The notes under the pieces were generated by a model. That model worked only from the letters and a program-made list of their open reading frames with translations. It ran no database searches and had not been told where the DNA came from. DNA of 64,000 bases, taken from the NCBI GenBank assembly GCA_019722365.1, contig JADFUC010002380.1:248001-312000 (forward strand), read 5' to 3'. The first letter of the stretch is position 1. Every line of letters starts with the position of its first letter. The DNA comes from Lithospermum erythrorhizon. Its lineage: Eukaryota > Streptophyta > Magnoliopsida > Boraginales > Boraginaceae. Below, one piece after another: positions 9,667 to 41,523 of the stretch. Made by a program: the position numbers and the translations under genes.

Positions 9667-11116
9667 TTATTTAAGGTAAGTGGACGACACCCACAGAAAT
9701 ATATAGGTCAATATTGATGTTGTGACTTCTAAACTCCTTGGTCCCTTGAGGATAGGTGGAATCACGGACACCATCAAGAATGTCCCGAGAAGCCAGGAGA
9801 AAGCGAAGGTTCCAGCTCTGCATAACAGTGATAATCAATTAATCAACACTCCTAGAATGAAGTTGACATGGTTACAATAATAGATAAAAAAAGTTGACGT
9901 TAAAGGAAAAAAAATGAACAAAAAAACTGAAAACATGTGAACCTAATTCTCATACTAATTCTTAAAACCTGTATCCGAATAAAGTCAAATTGGTTATGAG
10001 ACGATACCACACTCATCAAGGAAATATTTAAAGGAGTCAAGTTGTTGCATACCCATAAAGAAAGGAACGAAGCATGCTCTTCAGGCGATCATATATGAAA
10101 TAGATGGCCAGTATGAACGAAATGGCAACCTGAAGGGTTGGACCTTCTTCAGTTGGAAACAGTACAGTAAGAGCTCCAAGGACAATGAAAGCAATTGATG
10201 TTTTTATGATGACATTTTTTGATGGTGTCTGAAACCTGCTTGTTACAGCCTGTACAATACGGGACTGAGACAGGTCCCTAACTTTTTTCTTGAGGTCAAT
10301 TTTTGGGTTCCTCCTGTCATAAAACTGTTGCATGATTATCTTGTCATGGGCTGCTTCAATCGCATCTACACTAGGCTTATGACCCGCATATCTCTGTATT
10401 AGATAATTTCTAGCACCTTGGATTTCACCCTCGGATGCCTCCCTGCTAATACCAAGTCGTTTATATGGGTCTTTTACGTTGATTCTGGGAAATACATCTG
10501 CATTCAAGAATGCCCAGTCTTCAGAAACTTAAGGCACTAAGAACACATAACTGGTTGAGCAATATCTTTTAGAAAAAATGGTCTTACTTAACTGATCAGA
10601 ACAAACAGTAACTTAATGCTCTTAGTCTCTCAGAAGAATATTTTTTATTTTTTCTCTTGTCTAGTCTGTTAGCATAACATTTTGGCTCAGGTCAGTGAAA
10701 ACAATGTCAATGTTTAGTATGTACAAACATAAGTTAAACCATAAAGACATGTTTTTTCGACAAGAGAAGAAACAATAAGCTACACGTTACCAGTCGAGTC
10801 ACTTGAGAGATCCCCAAAAGAAGCATCCATTGCACACTTAATCAAATTCATTCTTTGTTGTTTACACCTCTGCTCAGAGCCTGCCCCGATACTGATATGA
10901 TGAAGCGAAAAGGAAGTATATAACTAGCAACCTACCACAATGTTAAAAATCCACAAATAACCAAATCGATAATTACCTATGTCCATACAAGAAGTTTCTT
11001 GATACCACAGAATTAGGATGAAGATAAGCTTGCTTAAGATCTGCTGCTGATCTCTGTGCAGGTATATGAAATCGGTATCCCAAATGGGTTGCAGTTATTC
11101 CAGGCAATGTCATCAT
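9667..11116 (-). CDS. CPP1/CDF1-like chloroplast J-like membrane protein (DUF3353 family), 4 exons
   Basis: Minus-strand exons 11116-10977, 10891-10791, 10497-10053 and 9817-9667 join in frame to 279 codons (278 aa). The first ~75 residues are rich in Ser, Arg and Gln and look like a chloroplast transit peptide. A J-like domain (about 90-142) begins at DPYKRLGISREASEGEI and carries YAGHKPS where a true J-domain would have HPD, so it cannot be a canonical DnaJ cochaperone. Hydrophobic segments follow at about 175-194, 200-217, 230-252 and 262-276. In Arabidopsis, CPP1 is a thylakoid/envelope protein that stabilises the light-dependent protochlorophyllide oxidoreductase. At least one paralogue exists, so I leave the symbol blank. 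A non-coding leader exon probably ends at 12538, with a 1.39-kb 5'-UTR intron (12537-11144). It is convergent with the S28 peptidase gene. Confidence 0.88.
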
Positions 11117-12683: not shown

Positions 12684-12756
12684 TCCGTTGTAGTCTAGTT
12701 GGTTAGGATACTCGGCTCTCACCCGAGAGACCCGGGTTCAAGTCCCGGCAACGGAA
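12684..12756 (+). tRNA. tRNA-Glu (anticodon CTC)
   Basis: 73 nt fold as a complete cloverleaf: acceptor stem TCCGTTG (12684-12690) pairs with CAACGGA (12749-12755), with discriminator A at 12756. The anticodon arm CTCGG-CTCTCAC-CCGAG gives anticodon CTC, reading GAG. The internal A box lies around TAGTCTAGTTGG and the B box at GGTTCAAGTCC. No CCA is encoded, as expected for a nuclear gene. It is transcribed away from the CPP1-like gene, whose probable leader exon begins less than 100 bp away on the other strand. Confidence 0.96.
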
Positions 12757-13890: not shown

Positions 13891-13899
13891 GAAATGTGC

Positions 13900-13908
13900 T
13901 ATATAAAG
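13900..13908 (+). promoter_or_regulatory. TATA box of the glycine-rich protein gene
   Basis: TATATAAAG lies 60 bp upstream of the start codon at 13968, a normal spacing for a plant pol II promoter with a short leader. Confidence 0.7.
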
Positions 13909-13967
13909 GGTCCAACAGAAGATCTATTTGCAACAGTCTTGGTTTATTAATATATAGTGATCAAAAG

Positions 13968-14631
13968 ATGGGGTCGTTCTTGCAACCATTTGTGTTTGTT
14001 TTTATAGTTTTGAGCTTTCTTTTGGTTAATGGAGTGAAGAGTGAAGGAGAAAGAAATGAAATTGTTAATGGATTCAATGGCACAACTACTTCCATTAGGA
14101 AGATGGCACATGGACTGAGCTTTGGTGGTGGGAAAAATGTTGTAAGGTTTCTTGATGAGGAAAATGTAGTGGATACCAAAAAGAGTATGGAAAGTGGTGG
14201 AGGTGGTGCTGGGGGAGGTAGAGGTGGAGGGAGGAGGTGGTGGGGGTGGGGAGGAGGTGGAAGTGGAGGAGGGGGGGAGGTGGCGGTGGAAGTGGTGGGG
14301 GTAAGCGGAGGGTGGAAGTGGCAGTGGTGGTGGTGGAGGTGGAGGTGGAGAGGGTGGTGGAAGCGGAAGTGGAGGAGGCAGAGTAGTAACAATGGGAAGG
14401 CAAAAGAAAAAGCACATGCACATAAGCAAAAACATGGTAATGGCAGAGGTGGGGGGTGGGGGTGGGGTGGAGGGGAGGAGGTGGAGGTGGGGGAGGCGGG
14501 GGTGGTGGTGGAGGAGGGAATGGAGGGGTGGTGGTGGAAGAGGTGGTGGTGGTGGTTGGGGATGGGGAGGAGGTGGGAATGGATGCTGGGGTTGGGGTTG
14601 TGGTATGCATGGTCCACCAGGCAACAACTGA
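13968..14631 (+). CDS. Secreted glycine-rich (cell-wall type) protein; reading phase slips in G-runs
   Basis: The start codon is followed by a clear signal peptide (MGSFLQPFVFVF...NGVKS, about 25 residues) and a ~45-residue acidic/basic linker. Then come long GGX tracts typical of plant glycine-rich wall or apoplastic proteins. The natural C-terminus appears to be GNGCWGWGCGMHGPPGNN followed by TGA at 14629-14631, but that is in another phase from the start. The glycine-coding phase moves in order 0, 2, 1, 0, 2, 1 near 14275, 14305, 14385, 14478 and 14528. Each step equals one missing base and each sits at or near a run of G. Either the sequence under-counts homopolymers or the gene has decayed. 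In the starting phase the frame stays open to 14711. No enzymatic role is expected. Confidence 0.6.
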
Positions 14632-15003
14632 GGGTGCATGATTTTGCATGGGCAATACTGTTTGTGCAAAGAGGCCATTCATTGAGAAACAATGAAATTT
14701 CATCCATATAGCTTTGATACTATAGTTGTATTTCTGAATGAATGAAAAATAAAAGATCGATCAGATCATAATCATTCAATCGGTGTTTGTGCTCAACATA
14801 TTTGAATTTGCATCTATACAATATTACAATTTCATCTACTTAAGTTGGTTCTTTTCTCTCCAGTCTTTCATAATATTAGTAATCAAACTAAACATCTCGT
14901 GACGTGGAGTCGTGGACCAGCAGTATCTAATGAAAAAAACATATTAGCATTACTAAGACTTACATTTGACATACCAAGCGTGTATTCCTCATACCTCAAA
15001 ATG
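14632..15003. other. Convergent spacer between the glycine-rich gene and NERD1
   Basis: Holds the 3' flanks of both genes. A plant poly(A)-like motif AATGAAAAATAAAAG lies at about 14740-14754. Nothing else is recognised. Confidence 0.6.
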
Positions 15004-24820: not shown

Positions 24821-27349
24821 TCAATCTTTTCGAGCTGAGCTTGAGGTCCATCCATAACCATTCTCTTCCACATGAAGAACCCCATTAGCTTCTTCATGTT
24901 TGCTGGGACTTTCCTTGACATCCTTCACCGCTTCATCCAACTCGATTCTCTTTCTCTTCAGAAGATTCACAACACCTTCTAGAGCTACATCTGGTTCCTC
25001 ACTTCTCATCAATTCCTCTGCAACTTCTGCTGGAGTCACTTTCGAATCCTCAATTAGACCTTCAATCTCACCAAATAACCTCGGATGCTCGTTAATGCCC
25101 AAGTAATTATAGGCTAAAATCTTAAAACTGTTGTTAGTGCAGTATGACATGTGAATATGCATGTCCATTCGACCAGGTCTCAACAAGGCAGGGTCGATTT
25201 TGTCCTTGTGATTGGTTGTGAAGATGATAATCCTTTCGTCTCCACAGCTCGACCACAACCCATCAATAAAATTCAACAATCCAGAAAGAGTCAACTGCGA
25301 CAAACAACACACAATATGAGTTTGACCATTCAATTTGAGATGTTAAGTTGTCCATTCTTCAATATTTATGCAGTATCTACAATGAATCGATGATGGCATA
25401 AATGAAATTTCGAAAAATCAGATCAAGAAATTCTTTGACTAGCATAAACAAGCCATAACTAACTTGATATCCTTCATCTCAAAAACATTATTAAGTTTGA
25501 TTTCAAATAATCGAGATTAACCAACATCTTAGCCTTAATCGACACACATAACTTGGAACTAAAGCAACATTGTACTGTTGGTACTAAATTGAAATTCGAC
25601 CACCAAAATTCAAAACATCGACAATCTTTTTCAATCTAAGGGGTAGCAATAAAAGCAGGATCCAATATCAGCCAAAAAAAACTAGAACAGACAAAAATAA
25701 CAGCCAAATTAGGACAACAAATTTGAAACAAACCTTAGTGTTTGAACCTTCATCTCCATAGTCCCGATCCTGCATTTCAACGCTACAATCAATATCTTCA
25801 ATGACAATAATCGACCTATTCGTTGTTGAGACAAGAATGCTCCTCAACTCGGAATCCGAATATATACCACTAAGCTCCAAATCATATACATCAAACATCA
25901 AATAATTTGCCATTGCAGCAATCAAACTCGATTTTCCAGTACCTGGAGGCCCATGCAACAAATACCCTCTTTTCCAAGCCTTACCAACTTTCTTATAATA
26001 CTCCCTCCTCCTAACAAACCTATCCAAATCATCAATTATGGATCTCTTCATCTCAAACTCCATAGCCAACGTATCAAACGTTGCCGAATGGTCCAAATTC
26101 ACATACCCCCAAAGGCCACCGCCACCACCTTCACCCTCCTCATCATCAAAAGAATCATAAATAGTACAATCTGTAGTATAAAGCTTCACTACTCTATCAC
26201 ATTCTTTAATAGTTTTCGCCTTTTCGATCACGAAAGGCAAATACTCATTTATAACTGTTTCTTTAAACTTCTTATCGAAACTCAGCTCAAAGAACTTTTT
26301 CTCAGGGTTCCCACCTTGAGGCTTAAATGAAACTAACTTCCACGTAAGCAAAACATCCTTAAAACTATCGAAAACATCGTCATTCTTGTCAATTCCAACA
26401 TTAATACTCTTGTACCTCGGGTTCTTTGATACCTGATAGAATATGATAAAGAGGGGAAGAATATGAGAAGAGGCTCATCAATGACCTTGATCTATATTAT
26501 AGTTAGAATACAACATCTACAAAATACACATTAATTGAAACAATTTCTATCGACCTAGACAATATCACCTATTCTAGGTAACTAATAATATAGTTACTAT
26601 AATTATATCAAATCATAATAACACCTATTCCAGATAACTAATAATATAATTCCATTAAATCATAATAACACCAAATCACAATAATATATTTAAATACACC
26701 AAATCATATTATAGGACGTTTTCGTTTTTAATTAGTTCAAAAAATATAAAATTGATATCAATAAATTTGTATTTAAATATATTTTCATAAAAGTAAATTT
26801 TTACAATTTTTCATCATGTAATTAATTCGTTATTGATCGTTAAAGTTGAACATGGAAAAATGAAAAAGTTTTATATTTTGAATTGGAGGATTAACATATT
26901 GTTTATGCTTTAAGTGTTGTTTAGACATGGAAACACATCAAAATACTTTATCATTGGTTGATAATATTCTATTTCCTATTATCATTGGTTGATAATATTA
27001 TTTCTGCTATTAAATTAATAAAGTACTTTTAAGCTATATAATACGTTAGGAATATCTCTAATAATACCCTTAGCCTCTCAGCATTGGGGTTGATCTTGGT
27101 GGCTAGGTAGGTCTCAGCGGCGGCATAGACTTGGTTTCGAGACATCCCAGAATGTTCATCGACAATGATGGTGAGGTGGGTGGATAAGGGGGGGAAGAGG
27201 GAGTGGATGAAGGTGGAAATGTGGGATTTTAGTTGTGGTGGGATGAGTTCATTGGTAATTGAGAGGAGGAGCATCATGGTGGCTGCGACGGAGGTGTAGG
27301 CGGAGAACAAAGTCGTCGCCGTTGACTGGAATTCCGGCAAGTAGTTCAT
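24821..27349 (-). CDS. AAA-ATPase, BCS1-related OM66/HSR4 (AATP1) type, 3 exons
   Basis: Minus-strand exons 27349-27068, 26432-25734 and 25294-24821 join in phase 0 to 484 aa. A membrane segment lies at about 15-34. Next come the AAA-ATP-assoc N-domain (to ~200), a Gly/Glu-rich insert (EEGEGGGGG), Walker A GPPGTGKS (255-262), Walker B IIVIEDIDCS (302-311) and the arginine-containing RPGRMD motif (366-371). The C-terminal 60 residues are charged and variable. Plants carry a large family of these BCS1-like proteins in the mitochondrial outer membrane or ER; several respond to pathogens and salicylate. The intron before LTLSGLLNFIDG is shared with the paralogue at 38383-41523; the first intron (26433-27067) is not. 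Which subfamily member this is cannot be settled by eye. Confidence 0.9.
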
Positions 27350-31780: not shown

Positions 31781-31920
31781 AAATATAATTTAATATTTTT
31801 ACATTTATTTGTATATAATTGGCCAACTTGAATTTATAAACAACCACTTAAAATATAATTTAATATTTTTACATTTATTTGTATATAATTGGCCAACTTG
31901 AATTTATAAACAACCACTTC
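31781..31920. repeat. Near-perfect 70-bp tandem duplication
   Basis: 31781-31850 and 31851-31920 are two copies of the same 70-bp sequence differing only at the last base, followed by a few bases resembling the start of a third copy. The identity implies a recent duplication. Confidence 0.95.
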
Positions 31921-33283
31921 TCATATAATTTTAGAAAAATAGTAACATCTTTGATCAGTTGCTCAAATTATTTAATAAATACCTATTTAAAATAATTTAT
32001 TTAAAGGATAATAATGAATTTCGTTCACAATTAAAAACAATATCATAAAGTTTAAAATTATTTATCTACTAAATAACTATCATCATATAAATGTGAAATA
32101 TATTCAAGCTGTATTTGGGATCATGTTCTTGACCATCTCAAATGACTGGCGTATCCAATATTATTATTTCCGAATACTAGAACACAATTCTTCATATTTT
32201 TAAATTCTTTATTGTATTCATCCTAAATACTAACATAGACAAATATGTCTAATATTTCATGAGTTACCCTATTTCTATTCTTTATTTGTGCAACTTCAAA
32301 ATTCGGATAAATGCTTTTGATTAAAAAATACATTTTTTACTAAAAAATACGTGCATACATGTTTTATACGCATTTTATACGTAACATTATAAGCGATTTT
32401 TTGAGTATAATTAAATTTGAGCGAATGCGTTTTATGCAAAGATACGTGCGTGCAGTTTATATGCATGCTAGCAACATAGGCATGAGCGAGGATAAATCGT
32501 GTTGTGTCTCGATTGGTTAGAAAACTCAAAGGTCTTAGTTAATCAACTCAATGTGAGGCGGCTTCTAGAATTGAACTCATCTTTTGAGAAAGCATGGCTG
32601 TAAATATGACATGTTAGTTAATTTCTCGCTCATCTATGTCCGAAGACAGGTTTATAATTACTTCTATGTAGAAAAGGCAAGAGAGACGAAAATTGTTTGA
32701 TAATATATCAAGTTTATTTTAATTGATATTTTATTTTTGTGTTAAGCTTTAATAATTAATGTCTTTGAACAGAGTAATCATTATTGTTATAAATATAAAA
32801 TCTATATAATTATATATGTTTTTAAAAATATTTCCATAATATTCTATTTTTATAATTTTTCATAATATCTCTAAAAATTAATTAATATATTATGACAAAT
32901 GATTTCTTTTCTCCAATACGGTTTACCCATTACTCAAGGCCAAACCGAAAACAAGATTGAACTCTTGCGTTTCAACAAGAATTTTGATAAGTTGCGGAAT
33001 TTGATGGTAATCTCATTGATGTGAGATATTTCTTGAATCTCTCGCATATTAGTTATAAAAATTTTGTTCATGAAGATCGTAATAATTTAGCTATCAGTAC
33101 TTCTCCAAGTCCGGGGCAATCAGGACATGTAACTTTTATTATTGATTACCATTATTTATTAAAATAATAATTAGTGTTTAAAGATTAGCAAATTAGAATT
33201 AAAATGAAGTGAAGTATTATGTGAGAGAGAGTAGAATATGCGTAGAATAAAAGGAAGCTTCGTGTCCAAATAGAAGAGTGAAA
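31921..33283. other. AT-rich gene-free region
   Basis: No gene or clear repeat recognised. Confidence 0.5.
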
Positions 33284-38382: not shown

Positions 38383-41300
38383 TCACTGATCTAAGGCATC
38401 TTCAATATCAGACTTCATCTCAACTGAATTGATATCAATCTTAGCCTTCTTCAATTCTGGCAAATCACATTCTCCCCCTTCTTTAAAACCAACATTCTCA
38501 ATTTTCTCAATGTTCTTGCGTTTGAGAAAATTAACAACCCCATCAAGAGAAACATGGGCATCATCAGTTTTCATGAGTTCTTCAGCAACTTCAGCAGGGG
38601 TGACTTCAGCTTTCTTGATCAATTCTTCGATTTCCTTCATTTGCGAAGGATGATGGTGATGATCATGTTCATGGATGTCCAGATAATTTGAAGCCAACAC
38701 TTTGAACCCCCCAGGTGTGAGATAGGACATGTTGATGTGGACGTCCATTCGCCCAGGGCGGAGCAGAGCTGGCTCAAGCTTTTCTTTGTGGTTGGTTGTG
38801 AAGATGATTATTCTCTCATCTCCACAACTCGACCACAATCCATCTATGAAGTTCAGTAGTCCACAAAGTGTAAACTGCTACAATGGGATTATGGGAATGT
38901 AAACAATTTTAGTCAATTGTTGTGTGTTGGTTCAATTTGATTAGGCATTCGCATCGAACTTCACATAATTTTTAAAATTTACTTTTAATTGTTACTTTTC
39001 TTATTTTTAGGTTCGTTTTCATGTATTTGTTAATAACTTCCTATTATTCACCAAGTGAAAATTAGATATTTCAAATATGTTAATAGAAATTTAAAGATAA
39101 AATTAAATTTTAAAAGAATAAAAATAAATATTAAATATGGACGTTGAATGAAATATATTTTAATTTATATTTTTATATGACAAAATATTTATTTTTTATT
39201 TTTATTTTATATAATTAAAAAAGAGCAAAAATTAGAGAATAAAAAAATAACCGCAAATTAGAGAGGGTATAAATTTAGGGGGTGAATAGAGTGATTGAAT
39301 AATTTTATGTAGTAAATCCTATTTTAGGAAGCTTAAAGCAATATTTTTATATTTTTCAGTATTAATCACTGTATAAACTTTTAGGGGGATGCAATGTAGT
39401 GCTCTAGAAACTCAAATCTTGGTTCTTTAAAATTAATTTCGTGTTTGTCATACACGCCAATAACTATTAATGTTATCCAAGATGAAAATCGAATATGTCA
39501 ATAAAAATAAAAATTAGAGAGATACCAATTTGAGCAATTGTATATGTAGAAAATTGGGGTCTTATTAAGATTTTGTTCTATTAAGATTCTTAAAAGACTG
39601 TTTTGTAATTTTAAAATTGTTATATGCTTCTTTAGTTATTTTTAAATTTTTATAGGCCAATTTACAAAAGTATAAATTTAGGGGTGAATAGAATATATTC
39701 TTACGTTATTGAATTAAAAAGTTTAGCATTTATAAATATAGTTAACACAATATACTCATTAACATATTTTAGTGTGAGTATCATGTATATTAAAATAACA
39801 AATTTTATTAAGATTATTAATAGCACCGTAACTTGACCGGGTTTAGCATTTCCTTTATTTGATAGGTAATGGGGTCAAGTTTCTTTAATTTTGCTAAAAC
39901 AAGTATTCTTTTCCATCTGGAAAGCCTATTCATAAAGTGTAAATATGGACCACAAATAATGTAACTACACAATGGCCCTATTGAATTGCAACACGTAGGA
40001 GACTTAGTAATATTTTATTAGCAAAAAATACCATACATATATGGTTTTATTTGCATGCTCAAACCTTTTGAAGATATCATGGCCAACTTTTGTCTATTGC
40101 CTGATTTGGTCTTTAAAATCATGGTAATGCAACAAAGTTAATTTTCACTTTTTCAATATTTTCTTTCAAAAAACTAATCACAACATTACTTAGCAAAGAA
40201 GACAAATTTGAAGCCAAATTATTTATTGTGAAGACAAATTTCATGGGTTAATAATTTTTAACTCCGAAAACAAAGTTACTATTTATTGTGGATGAACTAA
40301 CGTTGAAATTTAAGGGAGTAATAACAGAGAACACTCATGGACTATACAAAAAACTAATGATACACTAATTCATAATGGTCAATTAGAAATAATTAATCCC
40401 CATTCCCCAATAATACTAACCTGTTCGGGCTTCTTAGTGTCTACTTGTCCAATAATAGGATCGAATCCACATCTTCCAGGTAGCTTTACAGAACAATCAA
40501 TATCTTCAATAACAAGAATGGACCTGTAAGGGGTCGGGATTTGATGGAGTAGTTAGACACTTACTTATAAGCATAGAGATCGAACATTCAAATTAAACCT
40601 TGCCGCTAAGTTTGAAAAAAAAAATGAAGAATGGACCTGTTAGATGTCCTGAGCAACAATCTCCTCAATGAAGAATCATTATGGATACAAGAAAGCTCCA
40701 AATCATAGACATCAAATTTCAGATAATTTGCAATTGCAGCAATCAAACTAGACTTCCCAGTCCCTGGAGGACCATATAGCAAGTACCCTCTTTTCCAGGC
40801 CTTCCCAACCTTCCTGTAAAACTCCCTCCTCCTCAAAAACCTATCAAGATCATCCATAATCTTCTGTTTCAGGCCTGGATCCATAGCCAACGTGTCGAAA
40901 GTCGAAGGATGTTGAAGCTTAACAAAGTCCCATAGCCTATCATGAGAATATGGATGTGTAGCATAAGTATACAATTTGATCACTCTTCTCTTCTCCATAA
41001 TATCCTTAGCCTTTTGGACAACAAAAGGGAGATATGAACTCAAGACATCATCTTTGTGTTTTTTGTCGAAAACCAACGAAAAATACCTTTTCTCAACATC
41101 ATTGTAACCCGGCCTTGATGGGTTTTCAGATTTTTTGTCAGTGAAGAAGTTCCACACAACCATAACACCATCATGGTTATCAATAATTTGCTCTGCCCTC
41201 CCTAGTTTGACATTAAAAGTTGAGTCTTTTGAGCATTTGGAAAGCTTCAAACAACCAATATTGGGATTGATTTTGGTGCAAAGATAGGTTTCAGCATCTT

Positions 41301-41523
41301 GAAAAAGGTCATTGATCATCATGCCATCTTTTTCCTCAATTAAGATGGTCATTTTGTTTTTGTAATTTTTGAAAAAAGAGTTCATGATGGAGTATACATA
41401 GTCTTGAACTTTGTAGGGTATGATTTGGTTGAAAGCGGTCTTAACCAGCATTACTGAGGCAGAGATTGAAGCATAGGCTGCAAACGCAGAGGATGGAGAA
41501 GGCAAACTAGCAAAGGACTCCAT
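38383..41523 (-). CDS. AAA-ATPase paralogue, BCS1-related OM66/HSR4 type, with a SINE-like intron
   Basis: Minus-strand exons 41523-40637, 40523-40421 and 38874-38383 join in frame to 493 aa. A membrane segment lies at about 13-31, Walker A GPPGTGKS at 251-258, Walker B SILVIEDID at 297-305 across the first junction, and RPGRMD at 369-374. The acidic/Lys-rich C-terminus ends DIEDALDQ. The second intron (38875-40420) matches the one in the paralogue at 24821-27349. The first (40524-40636, 113 nt) does not exist there and interrupts the Walker B strand. Unspliced, it would add 10 codons and stop. It equals a 99-bp poly(A)-tailed insertion plus its 14-bp duplication. Splicing at the duplicated AG/GT restores the exact ancestral reading, so the gene is plausibly functional. 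The donor GTCCAT is weak, so retention is likely in part of the transcripts. Confidence 0.88.
40514..40527. repeat. Target-site duplication, copy 1 (intron acceptor side)
   Basis: AAGAATGGACCTGT, repeated exactly at 40627-40640. On the gene strand it reads ACAG/GTCC and supplies the splice acceptor. Confidence 0.85.
40528..40626 (+). mobile_element. Short tRNA-type SINE-like insertion with poly(A) tail
   Basis: The 99-bp plus-strand insertion ends in a run of ten A (40615-40624) plus TG and is flanked by the 14-bp direct repeat, both signs of LINE-driven retroposition. Near its head is an A-box-like TGGAGTAGTTAG (40545-40556). About 30 nt further is a B-box-like GATCGAACATTC, as in tRNA-derived plant SINEs. 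It lies antisense to the AAA-ATPase gene and forms almost the whole of its first intron. Classification as a SINE is inferred from these signs; no second copy is present in the window. Confidence 0.62.
40627..40640. repeat. Target-site duplication, copy 2 (intron donor side)
   Basis: Exact copy of 40514-40527. Here the same AG/GT supplies the splice donor. Confidence 0.85.

Follow-up and report, generated by a model that had tools for sequence, protein, structure and literature searches.

Within the first exon of an AAA-ATPase gene of Lithospermum erythrorhizon lies a SINE in antisense orientation, and it is likely that the duplication of its target site has made a spliceable intron of it. 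The gene is read from the minus strand of the 64-kb stretch of DNA that was analysed (the window). Translation places exon 1 at 40637-41523 and exon 2, which starts within an Arg codon ahead of Walker B, at 40421-40523; candidate intron 1, which separates them (40524-40636), is 113 nt long, GT...AG and of phase 2. Intron 2 (38878-40420) occupies the position of the second intron of a neighbouring paralogue, and exon 3 continues from there to the stop codon (38383-38877), following the reading frame and a database protein, P0001 (Leryth_007010 of L. erythrorhizon, 494 residues). The acceptor of intron 2 is doubled (TAGCAG, 38872-38880); P0001 uses the first copy and consequently has one extra Gln, by which the end of this intron is set. 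Pfam AAA_assoc and AAA domains, to which exon 1 contributes, fall within the first 328 residues of the spliced product and, the insert aside, all 494 codons form an uninterrupted frame in which the Walker A, Walker B and RPGRMD motifs are kept. The original prediction had put the candidate intron inside the Walker B strand; its place is slightly different, in that it splits the Arg codon immediately ahead of that strand.

The insert is bounded by perfect 14-bp direct repeats (AAGAATGGACCTGT) at 40514-40527 and 40627-40640, with no further copy on either strand of the window. The 99 bp between them (40528-40626) are the SINE copy, its sense strand being the plus strand; at 40615-40624 it has ten consecutive A (A10), after which comes TG. 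Both repeat copies read ACAG/GTCC on the gene (minus) strand: the left copy would provide the 3' splice site (ACAG/, the minus-strand AG being at 40525-40524) and the right copy the 5' splice site (ACAG/GTCCAT). Inspection of the sequence confirms these elements as they had been predicted, and the further proposal that both splice sites come from the target-site duplication is consistent with the location of GT and AG, both of which are within the duplicated 14 bp. The 14-bp repeat alone is not decisive, since exact repeats of this length at such spacing are not unique in the window: those 60-400 bp apart form several clusters with a total of 44 overlapping word pairs (simulated mean, 0.4). 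The conjunction of a run of at least eight A with a repeat of at least 10 bp within 4 bases, on the other hand, is found only at this insert in the 64 kb, both strands considered; in 40 simulated windows it has a mean of 0.1 per window, and never with a repeat as long as 13 bp. Another exact repeat, of 10 bp (40623-40632 and 40667-40676), is probably there by chance. A DNA transposon was considered and rejected: the region 40300-40800 is devoid of inverted repeats, and 14 bp is long for the target duplication of a DNA transposon.

Searches of the genome identify the insert as a member of a dispersed family of ~90-bp tRNA-like SINEs. When the insert is run by BLAST against the assembly it comes from (366 Mb, 2391 contigs), it retrieves itself only, a result that would by itself argue against a SINE and that was reversed by searching with patterns that allow mismatches. 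A 24-base pattern derived from the insert, with up to three mismatches, is found at six places (the insert among them) and its reversed control at none. A pattern made from one of these copies is found at 56 places in the 366-Mb genome, again with the insert among them, and its reversed control at one. BLAST with another copy, L025, yields 40 matches, itself included, for 40 candidates scored of 58, all with E at or below 1.4e-9. The multi-copy SINE family with A tails that the original prediction expected to find in the same genome is thus revealed by mismatch patterns, by BLAST with L025 and by a profile. These searches yielded 66 loci (L001-L008 by BLAST of the insert and the first pattern, three of them being this site, 28 new ones by the second pattern and 30 by BLAST with L025), corresponding to 53 distinct copies; counts of SINE copies are lower bounds. 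The profile (R1) was constructed from 16 copies, excluding the insert and also leaving out L005, which is probably a chance match, and L006-L008, which are weak. At E up to 10, its single match in the window is the insert, at 40531-40623, aligned from position 2 to position 90 of the 92-position model (52.2 bits, E 3.2e-15).

A-rich tails are visible in the listed SINE copies. Flanking repeats scoring at least 9 accompany 23 of the 53 copies and none of 53 controls with swapped right flanks (26 copies and 2 controls at a threshold of 8; 3 copies and 2 controls presented no candidate), and the scan found no clear duplication at the rest of the 53. The family alignment A3, together with the profile alignment, places the equivalent of an A box on the plus strand at 40542-40552 (TGATGGAGTAG; family form TGGTGTAGTGG), and the profile alignment places the equivalent of a B box on the same strand at 40586-40594 (ATTCAAATT; family form GTTCAAACC). 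The family forms correspond to pol III A and B boxes; the GATG variant of the family consensus is one base short of an A-box match. A first assignment of the B box, to GATCGAACA, was wrong, the family alignment placing it at ATTCAAATT. The box-like words of the original prediction hold up once the family consensus is at hand, but not in the insert alone, where 22% of shuffles equal them (7% with position and strand fixed). No tRNA match was obtained in Rfam for the insert, L025 or L013, nor by ARAGORN for the insert; viral and prokaryote contigs, scanned by pattern, gave no match, and no literature containing pieces of the SINE sequence was found. Two of the loci, L027 and L031, have the SINE D-arm words twice in succession around 1450-1524, which suggests a nested insertion or a duplication within the element.

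LINE-driven target-primed reverse transcription is the most likely route of integration, given that the duplication begins A-rich (AAGAATGG), that the A tail is close to it and that the element is nearly complete. Direct repeats flanking an intron could also be generated without retroposition of RNA, by filler DNA captured in the repair of a staggered double-strand break, and many gained introns of Daphnia, flanked by short direct repeats, are ascribed to break repair in the accessible part of a review by Yenerall and Zhou (PMC3443670). For the present insert this is very improbable: the filler would have to be a family member from end to end (2-90 of the 92 model positions), and other copies of the family carry A tails and are flanked by duplications of about the same length. 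Several details do count against reading the insert as a SINE turned intron, among them the TG that intervenes between A tail and repeat, the failure of plain BLAST to return a second copy, the lack of a tRNA match in Rfam or by ARAGORN, and the place of the insert among the more diverged copies.

In the SINE-insertion scheme that we favour, a ~90-bp tRNA-like element of the L. erythrorhizon genome would have landed antisense in the first exon of the AAA-ATPase gene, on 14 bp that held CAGGT within the codons for Arg-Ser-Ile-Leu, where the Walker B strand begins. The duplication would then have set AG/GT on either side of the SINE, so that splicing would remove the SINE together with one copy of the duplication and bring back the exact frame. 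GT and AG, along with the bases on the exon side, would have come from the target. The antisense SINE would have supplied poly(U) near the donor, a branch-site-like CTAAC (40552-40556 on the minus strand, 29 nt from the 3' splice site, recognized only as a consensus match) and a C-rich tract ahead of the acceptor. The original prediction of a SINE-like insertion that gives rise to a spliceable intron is supported as an interpretation of the sequence.

Cutting out 40636-40524 generates an open frame through RTSNRSILVIEDIDCS, and this spliced reading is identical to P0001 across the intron-1 junction, in keeping with the predicted removal of 113 nt leaving the coding sequence uninterrupted. Retention of candidate intron 1 leads to a stop at codon 306, and the same stop remains each time that one of four inner donors is tested with the same acceptor; among the donors tested, repeat-to-repeat splicing is the only one calculated to restore the frame. 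The donor appears to be poor: CAG/GTCCAT scores 5.6 on an Arabidopsis-like matrix on which the donor of intron 2 scores 10.0 and that of the neighbouring paralogue 8.4, and two GT sites within the insert score 5.8 and 5.3. The acceptor at 40524 has, on the same matrix, the top score among the AGs scored in the region. The A+T content of candidate intron 1 is 64%, and that of intron 2 is 75%.

That the junction is used as annotated would be implied solely by P0001. The annotation of the L. erythrorhizon genome was made with MAKER2 from transcript assemblies, protein homology and ab initio callers, according to the accessible part of its description (PMC7261806), and because these kinds of evidence were mixed, the gene model is not proof of splicing; its junction may follow homology alone. 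The contiguous motif N[RK]SI[LIV]VIED[IV]DC is present in 112 of 121 family proteins (the neighbouring paralogue and 120 listed hits, one of which is P0001), eight of the remaining nine having contiguous variants and one, P0079, no such motif. A search for literature naming Leryth_007010 found none. One might accordingly picture a real SINE insertion that is not usefully spliced, in a disabled allele or one of reduced function, with the intron merely a creation of homology-driven gene modelling. This would accord with the weak donor and its competing GT sites, with an annotation that drew not on transcripts alone but also on protein homology and ab initio callers, and with the composition of the P0001 cluster, which has NCBI/nr sources only and no listed transcript-derived member. 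We consider it unlikely all the same: the frame of 494 codons and its motifs have stayed intact although the SINE body has diverged (an argument that would lapse if the source copy already had that divergence), and the acceptor outscores the other AGs scored in the region. Splicing of the insert presumably does occur, and efficiently enough, and the intron would be fixed in the species.

The paralogues bear on the ancestral state. A protein search of the genome gives 39 matched stretches. The homologous codons are uninterrupted in 14 other members of the family and in the neighbouring paralogue (24821-27349, minus strand; homologous site AATAGGTCG at about 25817), that is, in 15 of the 15 paralogues read. 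That count leaves out C1822, C1596 and C2042 (read through by coordinates, with no stops), C214, C307 and C1599 (with stops in their matches) and C1662 (split close by). The paralogues of this one genome suggest that the intron-free state is ancestral in the family. The neighbour had been correctly described as free of the intron, but the homologous sites are about 14.8 kb apart and not 13 kb. With 52% amino-acid identity, it belongs to another clade and, being an old paralogue, it informs the ancestral state and not the date. AGGT is present at the homologous site of the neighbour (AATAGGTCG) and in none of the 14 other members. The opposite history, with an old intron lost from the paralogues and the repeats arising by chance, might appeal to the grasses, for which loss is reported to be far commoner than gain (accessible part of PMC4256211). 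It is nevertheless barely credible, as it would have to accommodate 15 of 15 paralogues without the intron, perfect repeats located exactly at the splice sites, and an interior that is a SINE.

How long ago the SINE arrived is a separate matter. Over 83 aligned bases the insert shares 82% identity with the family consensus, which ranks it 44th of the 53 copies. Changes from G to A or from C to T account for nine of its 15 differences from the consensus, a pattern such as the decay of methylated DNA would give. At substitution rates of 5e-9 to 1.3e-8, the insertion would be 16-41 million years old if all of the divergence came after it; this is a maximum, since some of the differences may have been in the source copy already. 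At 18% divergence, the chance of finding 14 sites unchanged is ~6%, and that of finding eight unchanged is ~20%. The gain had been called recent-looking, which is not established: the duplications are perfect, but the body is 18% off the consensus, and absence of the intron from the neighbour does not imply a recent gain, since that paralogue is old.

Other members of the family share some of the features that would favour splicing. CTRAY occurs within the last 45 antisense bases, ahead of the C-rich end, in 32 of the 37 copies with a complete 5' end, a proportion that has no control and is biased upward, since the CTRAY word was part of the patterns by which about half of the loci were retrieved. 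With that word and the C-rich end in antisense, a copy that came down on AGGT might be open to splicing immediately. Among the 25 copies with an exact duplication of at least 8 bp, the present insert is the only one to have AGGT in that duplication; its joined flanks provide a frame of 357 codons, the next longest being 135 (for random positions, the 95th percentile of joined frames is 197 codons and the maximum 409). The inexact duplication of L060 also starts with AGGT but falls in no long frame. It is quite improbable that the family constitutes a ready-made antisense intron and so acts, at a low level and in the manner of introners, as a supplier of introns to a land plant. If true, it would place an introner-like source in the land plants, a group in which, by the accessible part of PMC9860276, none was found.

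Few intron gains have an identified source. At this locus the source family is present in the same genome, the target duplication is perfect, both splice sites derive from it, and a set of paralogues lacks the intron. Iwamoto et al. are said to have described, in 1998, a rice catalase intron with a SINE-like retroposon, which would resemble the present case as a SINE-like element serving as a plant intron and differ from it in gene, plant lineage and element. The maize Ds intron, reportedly described by Giroux et al. in 1994, would likewise be a plant transposable element that is spliced as an intron from an exon, but the element there is a DNA transposon and the allele a laboratory one. The mechanism itself has already been published: the accessible part of the Yenerall and Zhou review tabulates 35 events under a model of transposon insertion at AGGT, from Oryza, Drosophila, Oikopleura and Zea (PMC3443670). 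The likeness is close (an element on AGGT, the duplicated AGGT as both splice sites, and the coding sequence unchanged), the difference being that a general model is set out there, and a new SINE family and species are added here. As far as that part of the review allows a comparison, this is a well-documented and unusually complete new case of the AGGT transposon model.

Introners, defined in the accessible part of Gozashti et al. 2022 (PMC9860276) as families with at least four introns per genome, also make introns by exon insertion of mobile elements, sometimes with target duplications, whereas a single exonic case is known here. The potato RdRp intron is another plant intron gain with an identified source, which in that instance is a tandem duplication of gene sequence and not a mobile element (accessible part of PMC4974935). 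The conditions quoted in the same text for strong evidence of gain are a clear phylogeny and an identified source; at this locus the source is identified, and the phylogeny rests on paralogues. According to the accessible text of PMC4256211, no proposed fixed intron gain had been traced to a transposable element. No report of this intron or of its SINE family was found in the literature searched, subscription papers lying mostly outside it. The locus offers a compact test case for the tolerance of a new intron beside a catalytic motif and for the question of whether antisense SINE sequence favours splicing.

Elsewhere in the window, an ORF with a CPP1-like domain is located at 10037-10507, and a GGT/GGA-rich segment at 13896-14711 is open in several frames on both strands, the ORFs tested there matching nothing in Pfam. 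At 12684-12756 there is an intact tRNA-Glu(CTC) gene, and a 70-bp unit is repeated 2.2 times, with 96% identity, at 31781-31931.
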